Position numbers and translations under genes: made by a program. From positions 1-27,739 of the IMG/VR virus record IMGVR_UViG_3300008012_000137: DNA of 27,739 nt; one strand, given 5' to 3'. A model generated the notes under the pieces. That model made no database searches. It worked only from the letters and a program-made list of their open reading frames with translations, and was not told where the DNA came from. Shown piece after piece: positions 2,509 through 24,148 of the stretch (position 1 is the first letter of the stretch; every line of letters begins with the position of its first letter). Source of the DNA: a virus.

Positions 2509-3447
2509 TCACTTAGAATGGTCTAAGTCAGTGGGTTCGTAGTTTACGTTAAGTGAGTAGAGTTCAAAGGGTTCTGGTCCAGTGCCTATAGCCATCCCTA
2601 CTTCTGCGTACTGACCCCTCAAGAAGTCGCCGTTGATAGCTGGGTCTGTAATCGCAAAGATGGATACGATACCATCCGTACCCTGAAGAGCCCTAAGGAA
2701 TGCCTCATAAGCCTGTAGAGTAGACTTAAGTACAATTCCTCTCCCGAGAGGGTCGTCGATATCCAGTGAGTTTAATTGAGTAGCCGAAGGTGAAATAAAC
2801 CCAGAGTTAAGTGTGTAGAAATCAGTGTTTTCTTGCAATGACACAGAAGTTCCTTCTGGAGTTATCACCACAGGGGTAGTGCTGTTCCCAAAAACAAAAG
2901 CAAACTTCGTTGATTGGTCTAATGTGAAGGCAGTATTGCCTACCACCCCATTGAAAAAGTAAAGGTCCTGACCAAGAGCCTGAGTCGTTGTCTCTCCACT
3001 CGTAGCCCCCACGAACTTCATATTCACGTTAGCCTTAATTCTAGGGTCTTTGGGAATGTTCCCGTACAGTATACCCCCCTTGTTTTTCAACGTGTCTACG
3101 TTGATAGTCATAGGAATTTTTTGCGGCTGCAGGGTCTCACTCGTGCTAAAGGAATGAACGGATCCCCTGAGATTTTCAGAACCCTCTACGCTGAATGTCT
3201 TATACAGCTTGTTCTGAGACGGGTTGTCATTGAACGAAACCGCAATAGCAGACTTGTGTTGCTCCCCGTAGAAGTTGTTTCTCGTTGGGTTGGTATTGTG
3301 CTCCCAGCATACTACATCATCAGATGGAAACACAGTTTTTCTGCAAGAGAAAAACTGCTTATCAATAGACGCATAGTTAGAAGACGTGTAAGAGTACTTC
3401 GACGTCCAAATGTTCTTCTTGTTATTGAACCCTATAGTGTTGATCAT
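2509..3447 (-). CDS. Detached C-terminal part of the tail-hub / stabilization protein
   Basis: A 312-residue ORF starting MINTIGFNNKKNIWTSKYSY. Its first 20 residues resemble the segment that normally follows the GGYDP motif inside phage stabilization proteins (a TxGFxxxxxxWTSxYSY pattern). Its end, PFELYSLNVNYEPTDLDHSK, resembles the usual C-terminus of the same family. It is therefore most likely the tail end of the protein encoded immediately upstream, carried in a different frame. The ATG at 3447 lies 4 nt after the TAA of that gene (3452-3454), ideal for termination-reinitiation. The frame stays open upstream to a GTG or TTG near 3513-3516, so a longer start or a +1 frameshift fusion is possible. 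The two products probably associate in the virion tail. Coding status is firm; separate translation versus fusion is unresolved. Confidence 0.85.
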   Translation of the reverse strand: MINTIGFNNKKNIWTSKYSYTSSNYASIDKQFFSCRKTVFPSDDVVCWEHNTNPTRNNFYGEQHKSAIAVSFNDNPSQNKLYKTFSVEGSENLRGSVHSFSTSETLQPQKIPMTINVDTLKNKGGILYGNIPKDPRIKANVNMKFVGATSGETTTQALGQDLYFFNGVVGNTAFTLDQSTKFAFVFGNSTTPVVITPEGTSVSLQENTDFYTLNSGFISPSATQLNSLDIDDPLGRGIVLKSTLQAYEAFLRALQGTDGIVSIFAITDPAINGDFLRGQYAEVGMAIGTGPEPFELYSLNVNYEPTDLDHSK

Positions 3448-3451
3448 GAGT

Positions 3452-6400
3452 TTAAGATGATTGTACCACGAAGGCTGATTGATCAAAATCAAATACAAAC
3501 GATTCTCCCGCACCAAGATACTGACCTAGGGCATTGTTGATATTTGTTGTTAATACATCTATAAAACTAGAGTTAGTGCTTATAACACCATCAGTACTAG
3601 TTTCAGTAGTAACGAGGTTTTCATACCCATATTCTTCTCTCAACTGAGATATTTGTTCAGTAACGTTTGATAAAGTCACAGTGGATACTGAATTCCCAAA
3701 CAAAGTCAAAAACGAAAGCAAGTCGCCAGAGTCTATGTTTTGGTTACCGTTTGCATCGAAACCACTGTTAGCGTTTTGAATTTGCTGAGGAACAGTAGGT
3801 CCGTTTTGTATGAGAACGGGGTTGTTTTGACCGTCCAGAACGGCATTATTAAATGCAAACCGCTGTTGATCCCGCTCAAATTGTCTGGTTCGTTCGAGGA
3901 TATCATTGATAGTAACGATTAGAGCGTTTTGATCAACTGGTATAAAGTTACCATCACTGTCGAAAAAGTCTTGGAAATAATCTGATATGTTGTCATACGA
4001 TGGGCCGGAAGGAATAACGTCAAGAAGGCTTCCCGTAAAGTTGAATATGGGATAATTTCCGTCAAGGTTTGGACCAGTGTTAAAAGCATTAAAGAATACC
4101 TCTTCGCCAACAAGGTTAATTGAACCATTTTGATTTGTTGTGGCGTTAGAGTAGTTGGTCAGGTTGTTGTTTATGTATTCAAGCAGTCTCTTTACACCCT
4201 CGTAGGATGTGTAAACAGATGGACCCGAAACACTCGCGAATTCGTTTTCAATAGCCCCCCCCTGAAGAACTGTTTGAGCTATAAGGCCCTTACCTCCTTC
4301 GCCAGTGTATCCTACAGCAGGGGAAAATTGTGAGGCTTCTGTAGGTATAGAAAGCTCTGGGAAGGCTCCGGAGCTAAGGGTCCCTATCTGTCCTAAAAGA
4401 TTTGTAGAACCCAGTATTGCTTGGAACTCTTTAAGTCTCGTTACTGCTTCTGAAATGTTTGATGCAGCGTTATACAGTTCATTGTATTGAGAAGTGCCGC
4501 TTATAGGTGCGGTAGCTGCAAAAAGGTTTATTGCGTTAACAAAGCCTCCAGAAGCAGGGAACTGATTATCATCATAAAATCCAGAAAGAAGAAGGCGATC
4601 AGTATATTCTGTAAGTAATGTCTGAAGCGACCCGATAAGCCCCTCAAGAGTGAGGTCAAACCCCCCTGCATCCGCACCTGTGATAGTCGTGAGTGCTTGT
4701 TCCAGAGCCTGCTCCAAAACGCCATCTCCAGTATCTGGATTAGCAAGAACTTCAAAGTCATATCCCTCTGAGAATCCAGTAGGGAAGCCAACACTAGTTA
4801 ACTGTGTGTCCCACTCCTCCAAGAAGTTTTTAATCTTTTCTTTCAGGCCCGCACTAGCTCCAGTTCCCAGCGCCACCTCACCTCCAAAGTCGTTGTTTGA
4901 CAAGAAGTCAAGTATATTACTTACGCTTCCGAACAACTCATAGAATGTGTTTTGAGCATCTGTGATATCAATACTATCACCTCCAAGGGCTTCAATAATT
5001 GTTTCAGCAGAAGGTGATCCTCCAGAGATAAGAAGGCTATAAAACTGAGATGGAACACCTCCGTTGTACGCTGGATTCACACCATTGTTCAAATCTCTTT
5101 GTACGTTAAACGTAAACTGAGCAGTATTATAGAATGAGTTAGCAAGGCCATCCCTTACCGCAGTGACGTTTGTCAAATTAGCAGTGGTGTCATCGACCTC
5201 TTGTTGGTAATCAAACCTAAAGTCCAAGAGTCCTTGCTCTATGAGCTCTAGTATAGCGGTCTGAGTAAGAGGGTCGGTAAGTATTTCCTCCTCAAGAGCA
5301 GAGTTTCCTCCATTTGTGAAGGCGTCATAAAAGCGCTTGAGAGGGCTGTCACCAGTAATCTCGTCACTAGACGAGCCGTAGTCGTCACCGAAAGGATTCT
5401 TTCCCCCTGCGTCAGCATCCTCTGGTGGGGTGTTCACATCGGGTCCTCTACCCGTATAGACAGCCTCTACAAAATTGCCTATCTGAGTGAGGATAACGTC
5501 TTTGTCTGCTTCCAGTCCAGCGTTCTGCTCTTCTTTGTCCTGAAGTTCTTGCTCAATATCGCCAAGCGCGACTGTCTGCGCGAAAAGGATAAGTTTGTTT
5601 AGGTCAGAGCGCAAACCACTCTGTCCTGTAAATTCGCTTATGAAGTTTGGATTATCAAACAAGGCCGTACCTTCAGGGAAAGCGGATTCATTATTGTCGC
5701 TTAGAGACGCAGTAGTGGGGATACCATAACCCAAGGTGTACGTGAAGAACTCACCATTCCTCAAAGTAATTTGACCTGTATCAAAGGTAAATCGACCGTT
5801 AGCGTTTGATGGAGGCTCTGATCCGAACTCATTAAGATACACCTCAAGACGATCTTTAAACTCTTCTATCACGTTTACGTAGGTGCTAAACGTCACAGCA
5901 GATCCGGGACCTTGATCAGTTACACTAAGAACGATATCAGCATTAACATCAGGTATGATGTACTCTGCCTCCAGAAAACTTGTTGAACCTAGAGCAGACG
6001 TAATGAATATGTTAGCTGATTGTATAGCTCCAGCCGCTTGATCTCTTATCTGACTGTGCAAAGAAACAGACTGTTCGATCTGGTTGATATATACGTCTTC
6101 AGCGTCTTCTAGTTGATCGTTAATAGTTGATATCTCGTCCTCAAGTCCTGAGACAACATCATCTAGAATTGTACCGTTTGGATCGGTGGTTACAATAGGA
6201 TTGTTTATCGCGTCATTGATCTGCCCATACAGGTTGAGAATCTGCTGTTGAAGATCGTTAATGGTGTTGTTCGCCTCAGTGAGGTTACCCTCAAGATCTC
6301 CAATCTCAGCTTCAAGCTCCTCAACTTCAAGCGCAAGCTCGACCTCTGATGCAAGTTCAGGAAGCAGTGGATCAGAGAGATCATCTCCCTGCCCTTGGGT

Positions 6401-9400
6401 AACAGACCCTGTACCTGTAGTGGCTTGAGGCTGTGAGTTGTATACGCTTATCACGAACTCATCGAGCGTGGGGTCATAGCCTCCAACGACCCTTACTGGT
6501 CCAACACTTGCGTTATTCCTGAACTTTTCTATAGCAGATTTAAACAGCTCCCTGAAGTATGACTTAAGCCCATAGTCCGATATGACCGCCACACCGTTTG
6601 ATGGATTGAACTTGTATACCTCGTACTTTTCTTTGTTGGCGAAGTATATGTTCTCATCAATCTTAGTGACAGATTCTGGGTTGGTGCTACACCCGTAGCT
6701 TCCAGAATAAAACCTTTGGGACCCAAGAACTTTCTCTGATGCAATTACGATGTCAGTACCGACAGTGTCAGAGATAATGCTTCTTGATATGGGGATCTCA
6801 CTGATCTTGTCCTCTTGGAGAATGAAGAGGCTATCACCTCTGTCAATCATTTTCTGTATACTCCCGTGAGAGTTTGGCAGATCCTTGAAGTTAGATGTAG
6901 TGGCGTCAAACGTACAGTAGTTCAGCTTAGGCAAGGAGTAATTGTTTACGTCACTAAACGTAATAGATGAATCTCTCCTTATCTCTTTCTGATATGGGTT
7001 TACAATCTTCGGCTTACCCCAGTTGTGCTGGTTTGCACCAATGATAGTATCCGTAAAGGTCTTGGTCTCCAAGTAGTAATCCAAGAATCTAGGTCCTGTG
7101 CCTCCGTCAGATCGAACAAGGTTTTTGTACACTTGATCCTGAGCGCTGTATCTAGGCATGTTAACAGGAAGCCTTCTGAAATAGACGTCACCCTCGGTCA
7201 ATACGATGTTCGTTGATTGAAGTGACAGATTGCCCGCCACATCTCTCAACACTCTATATTTCTTGCTGATCTCGTAGTAGACTCTGTCCTCAGCATCCTG
7301 ACCCGTTCTTGGTGAGTAGATTTCTACAACACATCTGTTGTTCCAGAAGTGAGCTGCAGTATCCGTCTGAGGAGAGTTGTTTGCAATACCGTTCCTTACG
7401 GCATTGTAGTTAAAGTTTACGGCAGAAGGATTGTTTCTGAGTATTACAAACTGCCCCGTGCACGCATCTGGTGTTTCCAAGTCGGGATTAACCAGTGGGT
7501 TTTCGTCATCATCGGCAAGCGTAACTGTGCCCACCACATCAAACTCATAGGATTGTGGGTATACACGAGCATTTAGGTCGTCTTCACCAGCCGCGAGGGG
7601 GCCAAAGTAAGATATGATTCTAAGCTTGTCTCCCTCCTTGTATGTGTAGAAGTCTTGGTTTCCGTCGTAGTTGATGGCGCCAAAAGCATTTGAGTACGAG
7701 ACCTTGCTGTTGTTTTGCAGGTAGTTTAGAGATACGTATATGTTACCGTTGTTGTCAGGATCATCTGAATCAAACTCCACAAAGGCTCCGCCAGTGGTGT
7801 ACTGAACGAAGTCACTTACAGTGCTGTTCCCGCCGTAGACAATCTGATAATTCCAAGCCCATGACGGAGGCGTAATGGCATTAAGACCCACTTGCACACG
7901 AACAGGACCCTTCTGATTCAGCAAGTCGTAAGAGGGAATGTATACGTTACCTATAGGGGTGACATCACTAGACCTTCCTCGTTGATCGTAGAAGACGATT
8001 CCAAAATCGTGGTTGGCCTTGGTCTTGAAGGACTTGTATGTCTGCTGTTCACCCTGCTGCTCTGGAGAAATAAGAACGGTCTCGAAGTCAAACACCTCAA
8101 CGTGAGGCTGAAGGTTGGCGATAAAGGAATCATAGTCAGATTCTCCACCGACAAGTGTGGTTCCTGTAACTGCTGCAAATCCAGTAGAGCTGTCAATGTA
8201 ATCCGCAAGGGTTATGTCTGTGGTGTTTTGGATTAGAGGCATGCAGTTAAGCCTCGACCTAATAAGCCCCTGCCCATCTGTAAGGCCCAAGTCAGACCAA
8301 GGGGATACACCCGCCTTGATTGTTTGATACGAAACACTAGATAAAGACTGTCCATTAGCTTCATCTGCGTTCTTTCCACCTGCACCAGCCTCCCCATCGA
8401 GCAAGCTAAATGCGTAGTCAAAGTAGAGGTCGTCTCTATCAAAGATGTTTTCGGACCTATTGGTGAAAGTGTCTTGGGCGTAGTTATGGAACGTGTTGAT
8501 AATTCTTCCTCCACTAAACTCAAGGTACGTGTCTTCTGTTGTGATGCCAGCCCCAAGAACTGCTCCGACACCTATACCAGCAAACCCACCAGCAATAATT
8601 CCGTTGAAGTCCTCAGTAAGGCTTATCGTTGCACCTTCAGGAACAAGGAAACCAAACCACCTTCTTATCTGCTGCTCAATCCTGTCTTTGTTCCCGACAG
8701 GATTTTCAAAGTTTAGAGCATTAGTAATAAAGGTGTGAAGATCAAGTCGGAGTGCGGATGAACTCCAAGTCCCTTCTTTGATGTCGTAAAGCTGTTGAGC
8801 GTTGTGGACGAAGAGTGCTTCAAAATCAGGAAGCTCCATGTTAACTACTTGGAACTGTATATGATCTCTTGTCATACACACCCATCCATCAAAGATGTTG
8901 GTTCCAACAGAATCATCAAAGAAGTCCTCAAGAATTCCTGCACTCAAATTATCGGCAGCCACGTTGTCAATAACGATGTCTGGGATACAGGTGAGTATGT
9001 CGAAGTCTCCGAGATCTATGAGGTCAAGAGCAAAGAAGCAATCTTCGCTTTTTGCGGAGTCGCTAGGAGAGTCAATCGCATAGAACTGACTGATGTCTCG
9101 AAGTCTAAACTCGGGTGTGGCCTTGTTAAGGATGAAGTACCCCATAGGGTTGAGGTGCTTGGCGCTCTCTTCTGTAGCCAAAGAGTCCTGTTTACCTACA
9201 GCAACAACCATTTTTGCTCTATAGTCCGTTGCCCCAAACACCCTAAGCTTCTGCAAATTGGTGATGCCAAGATCGACAAGGTATGAAGAGCTAGACACCT
9301 CGTTAATGATAGAGATAGCAGGGGTGGGATCAATGACCCCATCTTCAAATCCATCAATCCTAACGTTAGGACCGATAACCATACCCTTGATTGCATCAGC

Positions 9401-11104
9401 AAGCTGCTCCTTAGAGAGGTCTGCAAGCGTGACAAAGGACCCACTGAAAGACAGGGGCTTACCCTCAATGATAAATGGGTTTCCCGCGTTAGTGCCATAC
9501 ACTGCGTCTTGACCCGCGTTGTCAAGGCTTCCCTGAGTATCTCCAGCAAACTGAGATCTCCAAATAGGATATCCGCTACCCTCCCCGTATGGGTTGTGGC
9601 AAACACCTGTCTTGTTAAAAAGATCAGTTCCTGCAAGAGGATATTGCTTCATGGCAGCGAAGTACTGAGACCCGTCACCACTAAATCCAGCCCCTATCTG
9701 ATTGCTGATAGTCTGAGCCTCCTCTGCTTCCTCAAAGTCATTTGCCTCATCTCTCAAGTAATTGTATCGAGTGCTACCGTGATATCCCGATCTAGATTCG
9801 TAGAGATGGAAGTTGCCGTCAGGATTCAGGTTTATGTTGAAGATGACCTGAGTGTTAGCAAGGACACCTTCGTTGGGAAGCTCAGATGTGCTCAGTCTAT
9901 ATGCTGCCACCCTGTTATTTCCTGTGGCATTACCAAGAGCTGAGTTTGTATTCCTTACTTCAGGGGTCAATGTGAGGTCTATGCTTATGAAGTCTTGAGG
10001 TCTTTCCAATGCTTCAACGGCAAACGAAGCCTGCATTGGACCAACGTCAAATCCTTCCACATAGTTGCCAAAGAACAGTCTGTTGTTTGTAACTTCTTGA
10101 GTCCTAGCCTTCTTGGGTACTGAGTCAAACTGTCTGCGAGTCTCACCCTCTGGAAGTATGCTAAGGATCTTGTCATTGTAGAAGCTGAAGTCAAGCTGAG
10201 TACCCTGATATTCAACCTCATCAACAACAAACCAAGATCCGTCGTTACCCTCTCTAACAAGAAGCCTTACTCTTTCAACCTCTGAAGTCATGGCGTCTTG
10301 AGGCACAATAACCTCAAGGTAGTTCTCCGAGAAAAAAGATGCGTTGGGAGAGGCTCCCTGATTGATGTACGCAAAAGGCACGGAGAGCTTAGAGTATGTG
10401 CTAAGAGCACTTACATCTCCAGACTTGTATATGTTCTGATATGCAAACTGAAATCCCTTGTTACCCTTGAAGTTAGTGACCTTAGTATTTGGGTCGTTTC
10501 TAAAGGTGGCAACAGGGGGGTCGATAGGAGTCCTTGGACAGGTAGAAATAAAGTCCAAGAAGGATAGGTCTTCACTACTGTAAAGGTCATCAGTAGCCCT
10601 TTGTACATCTATCTTTCTTGGCTCGTTTCTGTTGTCAGTAAAGAAAAGAATAGGCTTTACCTCATTGGCACTGTTGCCAGATCCAGAAGGGATGTAGACA
10701 ATGTTAGAGTCTACAAAAGAATTTGAATCGAAGTTGAAGAGGTTCGAAGTAATAAGCGGTGTCACCTCATTACTGCGACTATTGTACACATAGACTCCCT
10801 GCTCAGAAGCAACAGTGCTGTGCAGGAAGTAGAATATCTGTTGGTTTCTCTCGTCAACACAACTTCCAATAACTCTACCGCTACCCGTAAAATCAACAGA
10901 ATCGTCATTGGGTACCGCAGTATTGCCCATCACGGGCTTAAGAACGCCGAAGTTCCCACTGGGGGAGTCTACCCCACTGCCACTTTTGAAATCATCGTAG
11001 TTGTCGTCAATGGTTACATTGACTGCGTCGATCATCTCATCCTTGCCACGTACTCTTGCGTCCTTGCTTGAGTTAAGCTTTCTAGGAAATACCTTATCTA
11101 TCAT
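3452..11104 (-). CDS. Giant tail-hub / stabilization protein with a ~1000-residue C-terminal insertion
   Basis: A 2550-residue protein. The N-terminus (MIDKVFPRKLNSSKDARVRG, then a YDDFKSG...GVLKPVMGNT segment, then ILFFTDNRNEPRKI near residues 150-165) has the pattern of the large stabilization/tail protein of crAss-like and marine Bacteroidetes podoviruses. A Gly-rich hydrophobic stretch (GGFAGIGVGAVLGAG) lies near residue 845. The family's GGYDP...DEFVISVYN segment is at about residues 1541-1555. From there to the end the protein is acidic and has no cysteine, although the preceding part has more than ten. This tail holds coiled coils near 1580-1638, 1645-1692 and 1842-1881, and a dockerin-like loop (FDANGNQNIDSGDLL) near 2448. 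The start overlaps the upstream ring-protein stop as TAATG. The remaining family C-terminus is the next ORF. It presumably sits at the tail or collar of the particle. Confidence 0.9.
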   Translation of the reverse strand: MIDKVFPRKLNSSKDARVRGKDEMIDAVNVTIDDNYDDFKSGSGVDSPSGNFGVLKPVMGNTAVPNDDSVDFTGSGRVIGSCVDERNQQIFYFLHSTVASEQGVYVYNSRSNEVTPLITSNLFNFDSNSFVDSNIVYIPSGSGNSANEVKPILFFTDNRNEPRKIDVQRATDDLYSSEDLSFLDFISTCPRTPIDPPVATFRNDPNTKVTNFKGNKGFQFAYQNIYKSGDVSALSTYSKLSVPFAYINQGASPNASFFSENYLEVIVPQDAMTSEVERVRLLVREGNDGSWFVVDEVEYQGTQLDFSFYNDKILSILPEGETRRQFDSVPKKARTQEVTNNRLFFGNYVEGFDVGPMQASFAVEALERPQDFISIDLTLTPEVRNTNSALGNATGNNRVAAYRLSTSELPNEGVLANTQVIFNINLNPDGNFHLYESRSGYHGSTRYNYLRDEANDFEEAEEAQTISNQIGAGFSGDGSQYFAAMKQYPLAGTDLFNKTGVCHNPYGEGSGYPIWRSQFAGDTQGSLDNAGQDAVYGTNAGNPFIIEGKPLSFSGSFVTLADLSKEQLADAIKGMVIGPNVRIDGFEDGVIDPTPAISIINEVSSSSYLVDLGITNLQKLRVFGATDYRAKMVVAVGKQDSLATEESAKHLNPMGYFILNKATPEFRLRDISQFYAIDSPSDSAKSEDCFFALDLIDLGDFDILTCIPDIVIDNVAADNLSAGILEDFFDDSVGTNIFDGWVCMTRDHIQFQVVNMELPDFEALFVHNAQQLYDIKEGTWSSSALRLDLHTFITNALNFENPVGNKDRIEQQIRRWFGFLVPEGATISLTEDFNGIIAGGFAGIGVGAVLGAGITTEDTYLEFSGGRIINTFHNYAQDTFTNRSENIFDRDDLYFDYAFSLLDGEAGAGGKNADEANGQSLSSVSYQTIKAGVSPWSDLGLTDGQGLIRSRLNCMPLIQNTTDITLADYIDSSTGFAAVTGTTLVGGESDYDSFIANLQPHVEVFDFETVLISPEQQGEQQTYKSFKTKANHDFGIVFYDQRGRSSDVTPIGNVYIPSYDLLNQKGPVRVQVGLNAITPPSWAWNYQIVYGGNSTVSDFVQYTTGGAFVEFDSDDPDNNGNIYVSLNYLQNNSKVSYSNAFGAINYDGNQDFYTYKEGDKLRIISYFGPLAAGEDDLNARVYPQSYEFDVVGTVTLADDDENPLVNPDLETPDACTGQFVILRNNPSAVNFNYNAVRNGIANNSPQTDTAAHFWNNRCVVEIYSPRTGQDAEDRVYYEISKKYRVLRDVAGNLSLQSTNIVLTEGDVYFRRLPVNMPRYSAQDQVYKNLVRSDGGTGPRFLDYYLETKTFTDTIIGANQHNWGKPKIVNPYQKEIRRDSSITFSDVNNYSLPKLNYCTFDATTSNFKDLPNSHGSIQKMIDRGDSLFILQEDKISEIPISRSIISDTVGTDIVIASEKVLGSQRFYSGSYGCSTNPESVTKIDENIYFANKEKYEVYKFNPSNGVAVISDYGLKSYFRELFKSAIEKFRNNASVGPVRVVGGYDPTLDEFVISVYNSQPQATTGTGSVTQGQGDDLSDPLLPELASEVELALEVEELEAEIGDLEGNLTEANNTINDLQQQILNLYGQINDAINNPIVTTDPNGTILDDVVSGLEDEISTINDQLEDAEDVYINQIEQSVSLHSQIRDQAAGAIQSANIFITSALGSTSFLEAEYIIPDVNADIVLSVTDQGPGSAVTFSTYVNVIEEFKDRLEVYLNEFGSEPPSNANGRFTFDTGQITLRNGEFFTYTLGYGIPTTASLSDNNESAFPEGTALFDNPNFISEFTGQSGLRSDLNKLILFAQTVALGDIEQELQDKEEQNAGLEADKDVILTQIGNFVEAVYTGRGPDVNTPPEDADAGGKNPFGDDYGSSSDEITGDSPLKRFYDAFTNGGNSALEEEILTDPLTQTAILELIEQGLLDFRFDYQQEVDDTTANLTNVTAVRDGLANSFYNTAQFTFNVQRDLNNGVNPAYNGGVPSQFYSLLISGGSPSAETIIEALGGDSIDITDAQNTFYELFGSVSNILDFLSNNDFGGEVALGTGASAGLKEKIKNFLEEWDTQLTSVGFPTGFSEGYDFEVLANPDTGDGVLEQALEQALTTITGADAGGFDLTLEGLIGSLQTLLTEYTDRLLLSGFYDDNQFPASGGFVNAINLFAATAPISGTSQYNELYNAASNISEAVTRLKEFQAILGSTNLLGQIGTLSSGAFPELSIPTEASQFSPAVGYTGEGGKGLIAQTVLQGGAIENEFASVSGPSVYTSYEGVKRLLEYINNNLTNYSNATTNQNGSINLVGEEVFFNAFNTGPNLDGNYPIFNFTGSLLDVIPSGPSYDNISDYFQDFFDSDGNFIPVDQNALIVTINDILERTRQFERDQQRFAFNNAVLDGQNNPVLIQNGPTVPQQIQNANSGFDANGNQNIDSGDLLSFLTLFGNSVSTVTLSNVTEQISQLREEYGYENLVTTETSTDGVISTNSSFIDVLTTNINNALGQYLGAGESFVFDFDQSAFVVQSS
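3455..6440 (-). other. Inserted acidic, cysteine-free module within the stabilization protein
   Basis: This segment encodes roughly residues 1555-2550 of the giant protein. Read directly, it contains no Cys, is rich in Asp/Glu/Asn/Gln/Ser/Thr, has few Lys/Arg, and opens with heptad-like helices (LEVEELEAEIGDLEGNL). On both sides the coding sequence looks like conserved family sequence with cysteines: GGYDP upstream and WTSKYSY downstream. Near its end is a dockerin/EF-hand-like loop, and DFFDSDGNF occurs slightly earlier. I infer a large domain insertion, possibly a fibre or receptor-contact appendage. The boundaries are approximate. Confidence 0.65.
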
Positions 11105-21818: not shown

Positions 21819-23669
21819 TCAGGCTGTTAGTTCAATCCAATCTTTGGATGGATCAAAGTAAATAGTTCCCGCACTAGCGTCATAAACATATCCAACCACT
21901 CTTACTACAGCGCTAGACCCTGTTGGGGCGGTGGCAGTAACATGACCTGCCGTGCTGTCTAGATATAGTACATCTCCGTCAGCGGCAGAGCTGAATCCAG
22001 TAGAGTCAGCCATCTTTACAATACCCTCTTTTACCATGGCTGTTCTGCTCTGAGTGTCAGAAGCTACACAAAGCATTTTTATTCCGTCAGTTGTATTGGC
22101 TCTTGCGGCGTCCCAACCACCGTCATACTGATAGACGTCACCAGCTGTCAAAGACAATGTGTTCGTACCAAAAGATTTAAGGACCCTCGAACCCATAGAA
22201 AAATCTCCAGCGCTTGAAAGAGATACTGAGGCGTCTGTTCTTATAGAATTAGCCTCTAGAGCACCACCTAATTCTAAAGCAGTCCCACTCCACTCAAGGT
22301 TGGAGTCTCCTTTAATCGTGTCGGAATCCGTGAAAACTGCTAACTGAGTATTAGCGGGAGTTCCAAAAGTGTCTACGGTGCCTGAAGGTTGATCTACAAA
22401 AGAAAGGTTACCACTTCCGTCAGTCTTAATGACTTGGTTTGCGCTGCCGTCAGACGCAGGGAGAAAGAACGTGGTGTTTCCAGTAAGCACGTCAGGCGCT
22501 CTAAGAATAACATAATTGTCTCCAGCATCATCATAGAAAGCCAGCATAGCATCAAGAGCCCCAACTGGTTTTAAAGACGTGGTGCCGAGAAGTGTTTCTG
22601 TATTGCCATCCAAAAAAGTTTTCCAAGAAAGAGCTCCTGTCACACTTGAAACCAGCGCATAATCTGATACTGATGGAGGACCATCAGGAAGAATAAACGT
22701 AGTATCGGACGTTACACTAATTGGAGCCGATATTGCAATAAAATTGCTTCCCAAAACGTCAGACTCATAAAGTTTTATCTTTCCCGTCCCAATTCCCCCA
22801 CCACCGTCAAACTGAATATCATCAGACTTCAAGATGATGGCTCCAGTTCCGTCAGGGTCAATCGTAATGTCTCCGTTAGATGCAGACGTAATCTTATTTC
22901 CGTTTACGTCAAGGTCACCACCGAGCTGAGGAGTAGAGTCTAAGTCTACGCCGAAAGCCGTAGGGGTGGCAACACCGCTTGCGTTACCAATCCAAATCTG
23001 TCCATCAGGAATGTTGGGTACGTCGTTAGAACGACCAATAGCCATAACGACAATCTCACCGTTGTTCTGCTGGCGCCTACCTACCTTACCCACATTCTGA
23101 ATAAGGTTTGTTCCAGTAGGCTTGACGTTTGTAAGACCTCCTCCACTTGCAACATAAACGACATCACCCTCCTGAAAGTCATTAGCCACTTGAGTGTCAA
23201 TGTCCTCAAGACTTCCTATGCACGTAGCCTGACCGTTGTCGTTTTGAGAGTAGTCATCCTTAGCCAATCCAATAGAAGGCATCTTAGATGAGTCAGCTGC
23301 GTCAGCTTTGGCTACAGCAATTCTGTTCTGGCCGTTGTTGTATCCTGTGATGTACAACGGATCTCCTTTAGATACGGCTTCGTCGAACCTTACCTCAATG
23401 GTAACGCGATCGGCGAAAGACCACTCTGTGTTGTAGTCTTCTCCGTCAATCTTTCTAAGAACTTGAAATTGAGTTCCTCCAGCTGGTACCCCTTGGCCAG
23501 CAGCCCCTTGGTCACCAGTATCCCCCTTCTCACCCTTGTCACCCTTGGGTCCTTTCTCAGTAACGTCTACAGACGTGGCTACTGAAGTTGTAACATCTAC
23601 AGAAGTAGCAGCAGATACTGTTACATCAACAGACGTAGAATCACTGACAGTTATAGAAACATCGCTCAT
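21819..23669 (-). CDS. Collagen-stalk fibre protein
   Basis: A 616-residue protein built from modules. Residues 8-37 are three 10-residue repeats ending TSVDVT. Residues 40-60 are seven Gly-X-Y triplets (GPKGDKGEKGDTGDQGAAGQ), a collagen-like stalk that trimerises in phage fibres. From about 80 to 220 is a beta domain (VTIEVRFDEAVSKGDPLYIT ... GEIVVMAIGRSNDVPN). Next come beta-helix-like repeats (LGGDLDVNGNKITSASNGDI, then FDGGGGIGTGKIKLYES). The C-terminal domain contains GDVLYLDSTAGHVTATAPTG, VVRVVGYVYDASAGTIYFDP and WIELTA. The TAATG overlap with the upstream gene and the 2-nt gap to the jelly-roll gene suggest co-assembly. Its position between portal and capsid genes leaves open whether it is a head fibre or a tail fibre. 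Confidence 0.85.
   Translation of the reverse strand: MSDVSITVSDSTSVDVTVSAATSVDVTTSVATSVDVTEKGPKGDKGEKGDTGDQGAAGQGVPAGGTQFQVLRKIDGEDYNTEWSFADRVTIEVRFDEAVSKGDPLYITGYNNGQNRIAVAKADAADSSKMPSIGLAKDDYSQNDNGQATCIGSLEDIDTQVANDFQEGDVVYVASGGGLTNVKPTGTNLIQNVGKVGRRQQNNGEIVVMAIGRSNDVPNIPDGQIWIGNASGVATPTAFGVDLDSTPQLGGDLDVNGNKITSASNGDITIDPDGTGAIILKSDDIQFDGGGGIGTGKIKLYESDVLGSNFIAISAPISVTSDTTFILPDGPPSVSDYALVSSVTGALSWKTFLDGNTETLLGTTSLKPVGALDAMLAFYDDAGDNYVILRAPDVLTGNTTFFLPASDGSANQVIKTDGSGNLSFVDQPSGTVDTFGTPANTQLAVFTDSDTIKGDSNLEWSGTALELGGALEANSIRTDASVSLSSAGDFSMGSRVLKSFGTNTLSLTAGDVYQYDGGWDAARANTTDGIKMLCVASDTQSRTAMVKEGIVKMADSTGFSSAADGDVLYLDSTAGHVTATAPTGSSAVVRVVGYVYDASAGTIYFDPSKDWIELTA
23490..23552 (-). repeat. Collagen-like Gly-X-Y triplets
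   Basis: Seven consecutive triplets (GPK GDK GEK GDT GDQ GAA GQG), rich in Lys/Glu/Asp at X and Y, encoded directly after the short N-terminal repeats of the fibre gene. It is an uninterrupted stalk of 21 residues. Confidence 0.85.
23559..23648 (-). repeat. Three 30-nt tandem repeats at the start of the fibre gene
   Basis: The repeats encode VSDSTSVDVT, VSAATSVDVT and TSVATSVDVT. The last six residues are identical in all three, while the codons differ, so the repeats are old or kept by protein selection. They precede the collagen stalk and may form the trimer's base. Confidence 0.8.
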
Positions 23670-24148
23670 TATCTAGCATCCGTTTCTATTGCTTCAGAGA
23701 TATCTTCTTTCACAACGAAGTTTCCAAACAAAACAGTCTTGTGTGTGTCAAGTCCTCCAGTAGTACTGGGCTTGATGTATTGGATGTCGTATACGTAGTT
23801 GCCAGAAGGAATAGATCTCATAACCTTTGCAGAAGCCTGAATGGTTGCATTGCCACTGTCGTCGACAGCAACTGGCTCAAAGTTGTTTTCAGAACCAGCT
23901 CTATCTACAGCCTTGTCGCCAATGTCTTGGGTGCCAAGAACCAACCCCCCCTTACCTCTAGCTGCTCTTCCTCCCACAGGAGATACAACTTGTCTAACCT
24001 GAACAATAAATCTGTAGTTGTCAGTGTCAAGCTGAAGGGCTGTACCAGAGGAATCCTTTAGGGTTATCGTCAGGGAGAAGGTATCTCCTCTCTTACACGT
24101 GATGTCCAGTCTGGACGATTCGTCAAGATTTACTTTGCTCGTTGCCAT
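23669..24148 (-). CDS. Small Ig-like / fibre-adaptor virion protein
   Basis: A 159-residue protein starting MATSKVNLDESSRLDITCKR. The segment CKRGDTFSLTITLKDSSGTA is the typical N-terminal strand pair of small phage proteins resembling baseplate upper protein N-domains (R-G-D-T-F-x-x-x-x-x-x-x-D-x-x-G-x-x-x-x-L). A second half reads MRSIPSGNYVYDIQYIKPST then LFGNFVVKEDIS. Such proteins often anchor fibres. It lies between portal and fibre genes, overlapping both as TAATG, so an adaptor linking the fibre to the particle is plausible. The family is recognised by pattern only. Confidence 0.75.
   Translation of the reverse strand: MATSKVNLDESSRLDITCKRGDTFSLTITLKDSSGTALQLDTDNYRFIVQVRQVVSPVGGRAARGKGGLVLGTQDIGDKAVDRAGSENNFEPVAVDDSGNATIQASAKVMRSIPSGNYVYDIQYIKPSTTGGLDTHKTVLFGNFVVKEDISEAIETDAR

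Follow-up and report, generated by a model that had tools for sequence, protein, structure and literature searches.

Phage nozzles gate the ejection of DNA. In phicrAss001 the muzzle is gp44, which assembles as a hexamer at the tail tip and contains a seven-bladed propeller; its IG2 region (residues 318-1021) places about 700 residues within one blade and leaves the chain unbroken, and its published length variation concerns the crass and IG2 regions rather than the hairpin of a late blade (PMC10172136). Members of the same muzzle family as the one described here are encoded by Callevirus phi38:1 (gp097), Elemovirus and Gundelvirus Gundel_1 (gp060), all as a single chain without an insertion at the hairpin. 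The open literature that was searched contains no description of a split muzzle, though annotations deposited for isolates already list both muzzle genes.

The DNA analysed here (the window) is a stretch of 27,739 nt from a marine phage (viral record IMGVR_UViG_3300008012_000137), and its muzzle locus consists of two ORFs (Table 1). The longer one, the N-chain, has the sequence GGYDP at residue 1541 and matches PF25731 crAss_MUZ with 37.5 bits (cut-off 27), residues 1119-1549 aligning with profile positions 764-1181 of 1224; it also matches phrog_14478 (5.5e-81). Tblastn matches to phages, those of Flavobacterium and Cellulophaga among them, reach as far as residue 1554, and no match in the muzzle family was found for residues 1554-2550. 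The shorter ORF, the C-chain, opens with MINTIGFNNKKNIWTS in a frame different from that of the N-chain, and is separate from the crAss_MUZ ORF. It matches PF25729 crAss_MUZ_C (32.0 bits, cut-off 27) and phrog_18548, the latter beginning at the first residue of the phrog. With both ORFs above the cut-offs of their families, the arrangement is not due to chance, and on the strength of these matches they are halves of one crassvirus-type muzzle protein. The single-polypeptide state of the phicrAss001 muzzle is replaced in the window by a stop codon and a new start at the hairpin.

Table 1. Features of the muzzle locus in the window
Feature	Position (nt)	Strand	Basis
N-chain of the muzzle protein, whole ORF, 2550 aa	3452..11104	-	PF25731, phrog_14478
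Muzzle-homologous part of the N-chain, residues 1-1553, last strand DEFVIS	6446..11104	-	Pfam, tblastn
C-terminal extension of the N-chain, ~1000 residues	3455..6445	-	Composition, selection, present in the clade only
Putative coiled-coil stalk, residues ~1587-1704	5993..6346	-	Low-confidence model, sub-threshold matches
EF-hand/dockerin-like motif DANGNQNIDSGDLLSFLTLFG near the end of the extension	3695..3757	-	Motif scan
Junction: TAA 3454-3452, 4-nt spacer, C-chain ATG 3447-3445	3445..3454	-	Sequence
C-chain of the muzzle, 312 aa: second blade half and C-terminal region	2509..3447	-	PF25729, phrog_18548, model of a relative

The initial annotation had read the locus as two coupled ORFs derived from one ancestral stabilization protein, and this derivation is borne out by the Pfam matches, which place both ORFs in one muzzle family and not in unrelated ones. 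The family was correctly recognised under the name 'stabilization protein', and can now be specified as homologous to the gp44 muzzle of phicrAss001. The segment PFELYSLNVNY...LDHSK, taken to be the usual C-terminus of the family, was misjudged: it occurs in the small clade of the window only, and elsewhere the C-terminus is like VELFAIESTAIKSY. The next gene (1400-2512) starts at a GTG that shares four bases with the stop of the C-chain (2509-2512), which suggests that the two belong to a translationally coupled run. A search of the window for a promoter of the C-chain with the motif TAnnTTTG, the -7 promoter element of Bacteroidota, found none.

The 994 residues that follow DEFVISVYN include 146 D/E, 30 K/R and no Cys, while there are 11 Cys in the first 1556 residues of the N-chain, so that the change to an acidic, Cys-free sequence and the position of the break at the 3' edge of the insertion stand as originally described. 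Matches of the extension to coiled-coil families were weak and below threshold. An AlphaFold model from three rows had a pLDDT of 34.5, useless for a fold search, and in this low-confidence model long helices span residues 36-83 and 94-153 of the extension, which is predicted to be mostly helical. Scans of viral contigs found the extension in the clade of the window only. Near its end lies a 12-residue loop (DANGNQNIDSGD) whose ligands at positions 1, 3, 5 and 12 are acidic or Asn, and a motif scan detected the same EF-hand-like motif in loci L002, L003 (Thr at position 3 of the loop) and L004, and in the tail of the sister locus L013; a variant was read by eye in L012. No dockerin or EF-hand Pfam model was listed for the extension at E <= 1. 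This end of the arm may bind calcium. In L013, the nearest sister, only 166 residues lie past the break, a poly-Gly stretch and then the EF-hand-like motif, so the arm of about 1000 residues probably grew between the break and the motif.

The whole arrangement of extension and break is present in L002, L003 and L012, and the contig fragment L004 covers just the final part of the extension together with the C ORF; relatives with the same ~1000 residues are therefore also split, and do not carry them as part of an uncut protein. Compared with L002, the extension has a dN of 0.50 and a dS of 1.72 (NG86; dS is near saturation), giving a dN/dS of about 0.3 with the frame kept. By this measure the extension is under purifying selection, fast-changing yet constrained, in agreement with the earlier proposal that selection had kept the frame open. 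Identity between the window and L002 is 95% for the portal, 69% for the last part of the muzzle, 82% for the C-chain and 47% for the extension, so the extension diverges faster than the flanking muzzle (69-82%) and the portal, as expected for a surface part. A second divergent stretch is seen at 7750-10030 (N-chain residues 360-1118), with 54% identity to L002 compared to 69-70% in its flanks.

The prevalence of the break was examined in two surveys of loci chosen by similarity, many of them close relatives that are included in the counts. The first, which used one profile for the C domain and one for the last part of the muzzle, gave 121 split loci, whose halves lie 498-8701 nt apart, against 3-51 nt in 16 unsplit loci. 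The second, which started from unsplit relatives, gave 13 split loci (1808-5612 nt) and 52 unsplit loci (6-111 nt). Taken together (n = 202), the halves are 498-8701 nt apart in all 134 split loci and 3-111 nt apart in all 68 unsplit ones, without exception. The idea that an insertion divides one protein is partly right: the break is not specific to this genome, as it recurs in these 134 of 202 loci and in cultured Pachyviridae. Thinning of the first survey left 89 split and 15 unsplit loci; the C-chain starts within 10 residues of the start strand of the C domain in 77 of the 89, and in eight non-redundant loci the break falls within the insert, of which the C ORF then carries 135-598 aa. A 62-row tree, which leaves out the window clade, L013 and Gundel, shows at least four changes of state forced by well-supported branches (4-5 in bootstraps), and the link between split and insertion is thus not one inherited event. 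Where the window clade, L013 or Gundel is included, the trees show long branches, and their counts of 4 or 6 changes (3 or 1 forced) are less secure.

Some loci have other peculiarities. Four uncut muzzles (L195, L197, L214 and L236) carry about 750-1030 residues added after the C-terminal domain, and these additions, at the natural chain end, fit the free-C-terminus logic set out below. Four more, which form a clade (L044, L052, L055 and L081), are uncut at the hairpin and apparently cut farther upstream (in L044 an ORF of 1629 aa is followed by one of 439 aa). The muzzle of Maribacter phage Panino (PP540027; L173) is annotated as two CDS, with a frame change near a T5 run at a different site within the last muzzle part, which may be real or a sequencing error.

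Cultured phages show both states. All four of the Pachyviridae phi18:3, phi46:3, phi13:2 and phi19:3 have the C-chain family, and in phi18:3 and phi46:3 the muzzle is specified by two ORFs divided at the same strand boundary as in the window, with an N-chain extension of about 500 aa. In phi18:3 both chains, gp114 and gp115, are recorded from virion MS/MS, which makes this phage a cultured precedent for a two-chain muzzle. The Pachyviridae extension is unrelated to that of the window, consisting of a ~100-aa domain followed by Ig/cadherin-like sequence rather than an acidic, helical region with an EF-hand-like end. Gundel_1, which is in the same family as the cut Pachyviridae, is uncut. In Podoviridae sp. 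ctfjg026 (MW202828) the N- and C-chains are parted at the same point as in the window but, unlike in the window, a gene of 183 aa annotated as 'putative glycosidase' lies between them.

What follows the break differs between loci, with at least three kinds of module, which fits a slot for exchangeable parts. A related domain of about 100 residues continues the N-chain in 66 of the 89 non-redundant loci; a second group is BACON-type (a Pfam match in L104, and similar sequence by eye in others), Ig-like modules occur further along in the inserts, and the acidic helical module of the window is a third, clade-specific kind. Some loci have whole separate genes between the muzzle halves. Enzymes, which are not obvious tail parts, lie there in L040 (6658-8952; a glycosyltransferase, Gly_transf_sug) and in L063 and L072 (6650-8083; a carbamoyltransferase gene in L063). 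Among 80 non-redundant split loci, 19 (e.g. L014, L104 and L108) have TAnnTTTG in the 60 nt ahead of the C-chain start, frequently no more than about 10 nt from the ATG, compared to a background of 4.2% and to 0 of 81 before N-chain starts; the rows are related, which makes the p-value optimistic.

The position of the cut in the fold was taken from an AlphaFold model of a distant unsplit relative, built from 34 rows and covering the last blades (pLDDT 70 on average and 70-80 in blocks around the hairpin, pTM 0.38). Strands 266-271, 276-281, 285-290 and 295-301 of this model form a four-stranded blade (266-301), and the cut maps to the turn at 281-285, between the second and third of them. The muzzle part of the N-chain would thus end on one strand and the C-chain open with its partner strand. 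The top Foldseek matches of the model are the phicrAss001 muzzle structures 7qok and 7qol (E 1e-10), residues 138-526 aligning with gp44 1028-1371, and matches to propellers from other proteins extend over residues 121-302, thus running across the cut. When solved structures were searched by sequence, neither the N part nor the C part nor a profile of unsplit relatives found the muzzle, and 7qok and 7qol were recovered by the structural search only. The gp44 protein is a homologous muzzle with both Pfam domains and a structural match that spans the break, and differs in being one chain rather than two. A propeller blade completed in trans by two chains is a well-supported reading.

We consider it likely that the window specifies a muzzle of two polypeptides, which together complete one propeller blade in trans, and that a variable appendage hangs from the newly created chain end. 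The spacing of the ORFs invites a different account, in which a programmed frameshift or stop read-through joins them and some or all of the muzzle is one chain of about 2860 residues. The ORFs of the window are just 4 nt apart, long fused tail proteins are known, and in phi18:3 the two lie in the same frame around one stop; both of its products, gp114 (1612 aa) and gp115 (241 aa), are annotated 'experimental MS/MS proteomics analysis', and detection of both parts by virion mass spectrometry is compatible with read-through. However, 32 directly adjacent pairs show all three relative frames (15, 11 and 6) with spacers of -1 to 33 nt, no common slippery sequence was seen at their junctions, many other loci have entire extra genes between the halves, and in most loci the ATG of the C ORF sits at the strand boundary. 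The varied offsets, spacers and intervening genes make separate chains far likelier, and joining of the ORFs is improbable. A neutral history is easier to entertain, though still unlikely: gene fission came first, the gap then served as a safe site for genes, and the correlation with insertions is a by-product without a structural reason. Some inserts, such as the glycosyltransferase of L040 and the carbamoyltransferase of L063, look unrelated to tails, and the order of split and insertion is not readable from the tree. Yet a split without an insertion was found in 0 of 134 loci, where neutrality would lead one to expect some, and the N-chain nearly always extends at least ~94 residues beyond the break, usually with a conserved domain.

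A single conserved insertion site also calls to mind a mobile element, such as a group I or II intron, an intein or a split intein, and some crAss-like phages are dense in introns and inteins (PMC7886860). Rfam families stayed below threshold in the window and seven related loci, no intein domain was present in Pfam scans of the window chains, the extension and 20 inserts from relatives, and in most loci the C ORF lacks any additional N-terminal segment, all of which leave this origin very doubtful. That the break and extension are an artefact of sequencing or assembly, or mark a decaying gene, is hardly credible: the window is one metagenomic contig, but the same arrangement is common to other contigs with an extension identity of 36-47%, and the intact frame and low dN/dS speak against decay.

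In the two-polypeptide muzzle, the N-chain would give the N-terminal muzzle parts and the propeller up to the DEFVIS strand of a late blade. The C-chain, probably translated by re-initiation on the same message, would begin with the next strand of the blade (TIGFN...) and give what remains of the propeller along with the C-terminal region. A cut in the hairpin turn would free a C-terminus, so that the acidic arm could project with no need to lead back to the blade. By analogy with the hexameric phicrAss001 muzzle, six arms would stand around the tail tip, most likely contacting the host surface or stabilising the tip. For this phage we infer the association in trans, the outward projection and the function of the arm, and we hypothesise that the appendage, as first suggested from the sequence, may have a receptor or fibre role. 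Elsewhere in the window (21819-23669), a 616-aa protein with weak tail-fibre PHROG matches adjoins a phrog_1084 protein (23669-24148), and is a likelier classical fibre of this phage.

A broader proposition, which we believe and doubt in about equal measure, is that the hairpin is an expansion slot in flavophage muzzles, where a large appendage is accommodated only through a chain break. The slot would have been repeatedly opened and closed, with unrelated adhesin, carbohydrate-binding-type or enzyme modules exchanged in it, and would hold a calcium-binding helical arm in the clade of the window. Since gp44 holds its IG2 insertion uncut, a break is not a general requirement for insertion. For annotation, the C-terminal muzzle fragments labeled 'structural protein' or 'unknown function' (phrog_18548) can be corrected to one half of a tail-tip protein. 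If true, completion of the propeller by a second chain inside one blade would give a part under mechanical load an unusual architecture, and the rule that an insertion is present if, and only if, the chain is broken offers a testable principle for how the tail tips of marine Bacteroidota phages may gain host-contact modules.
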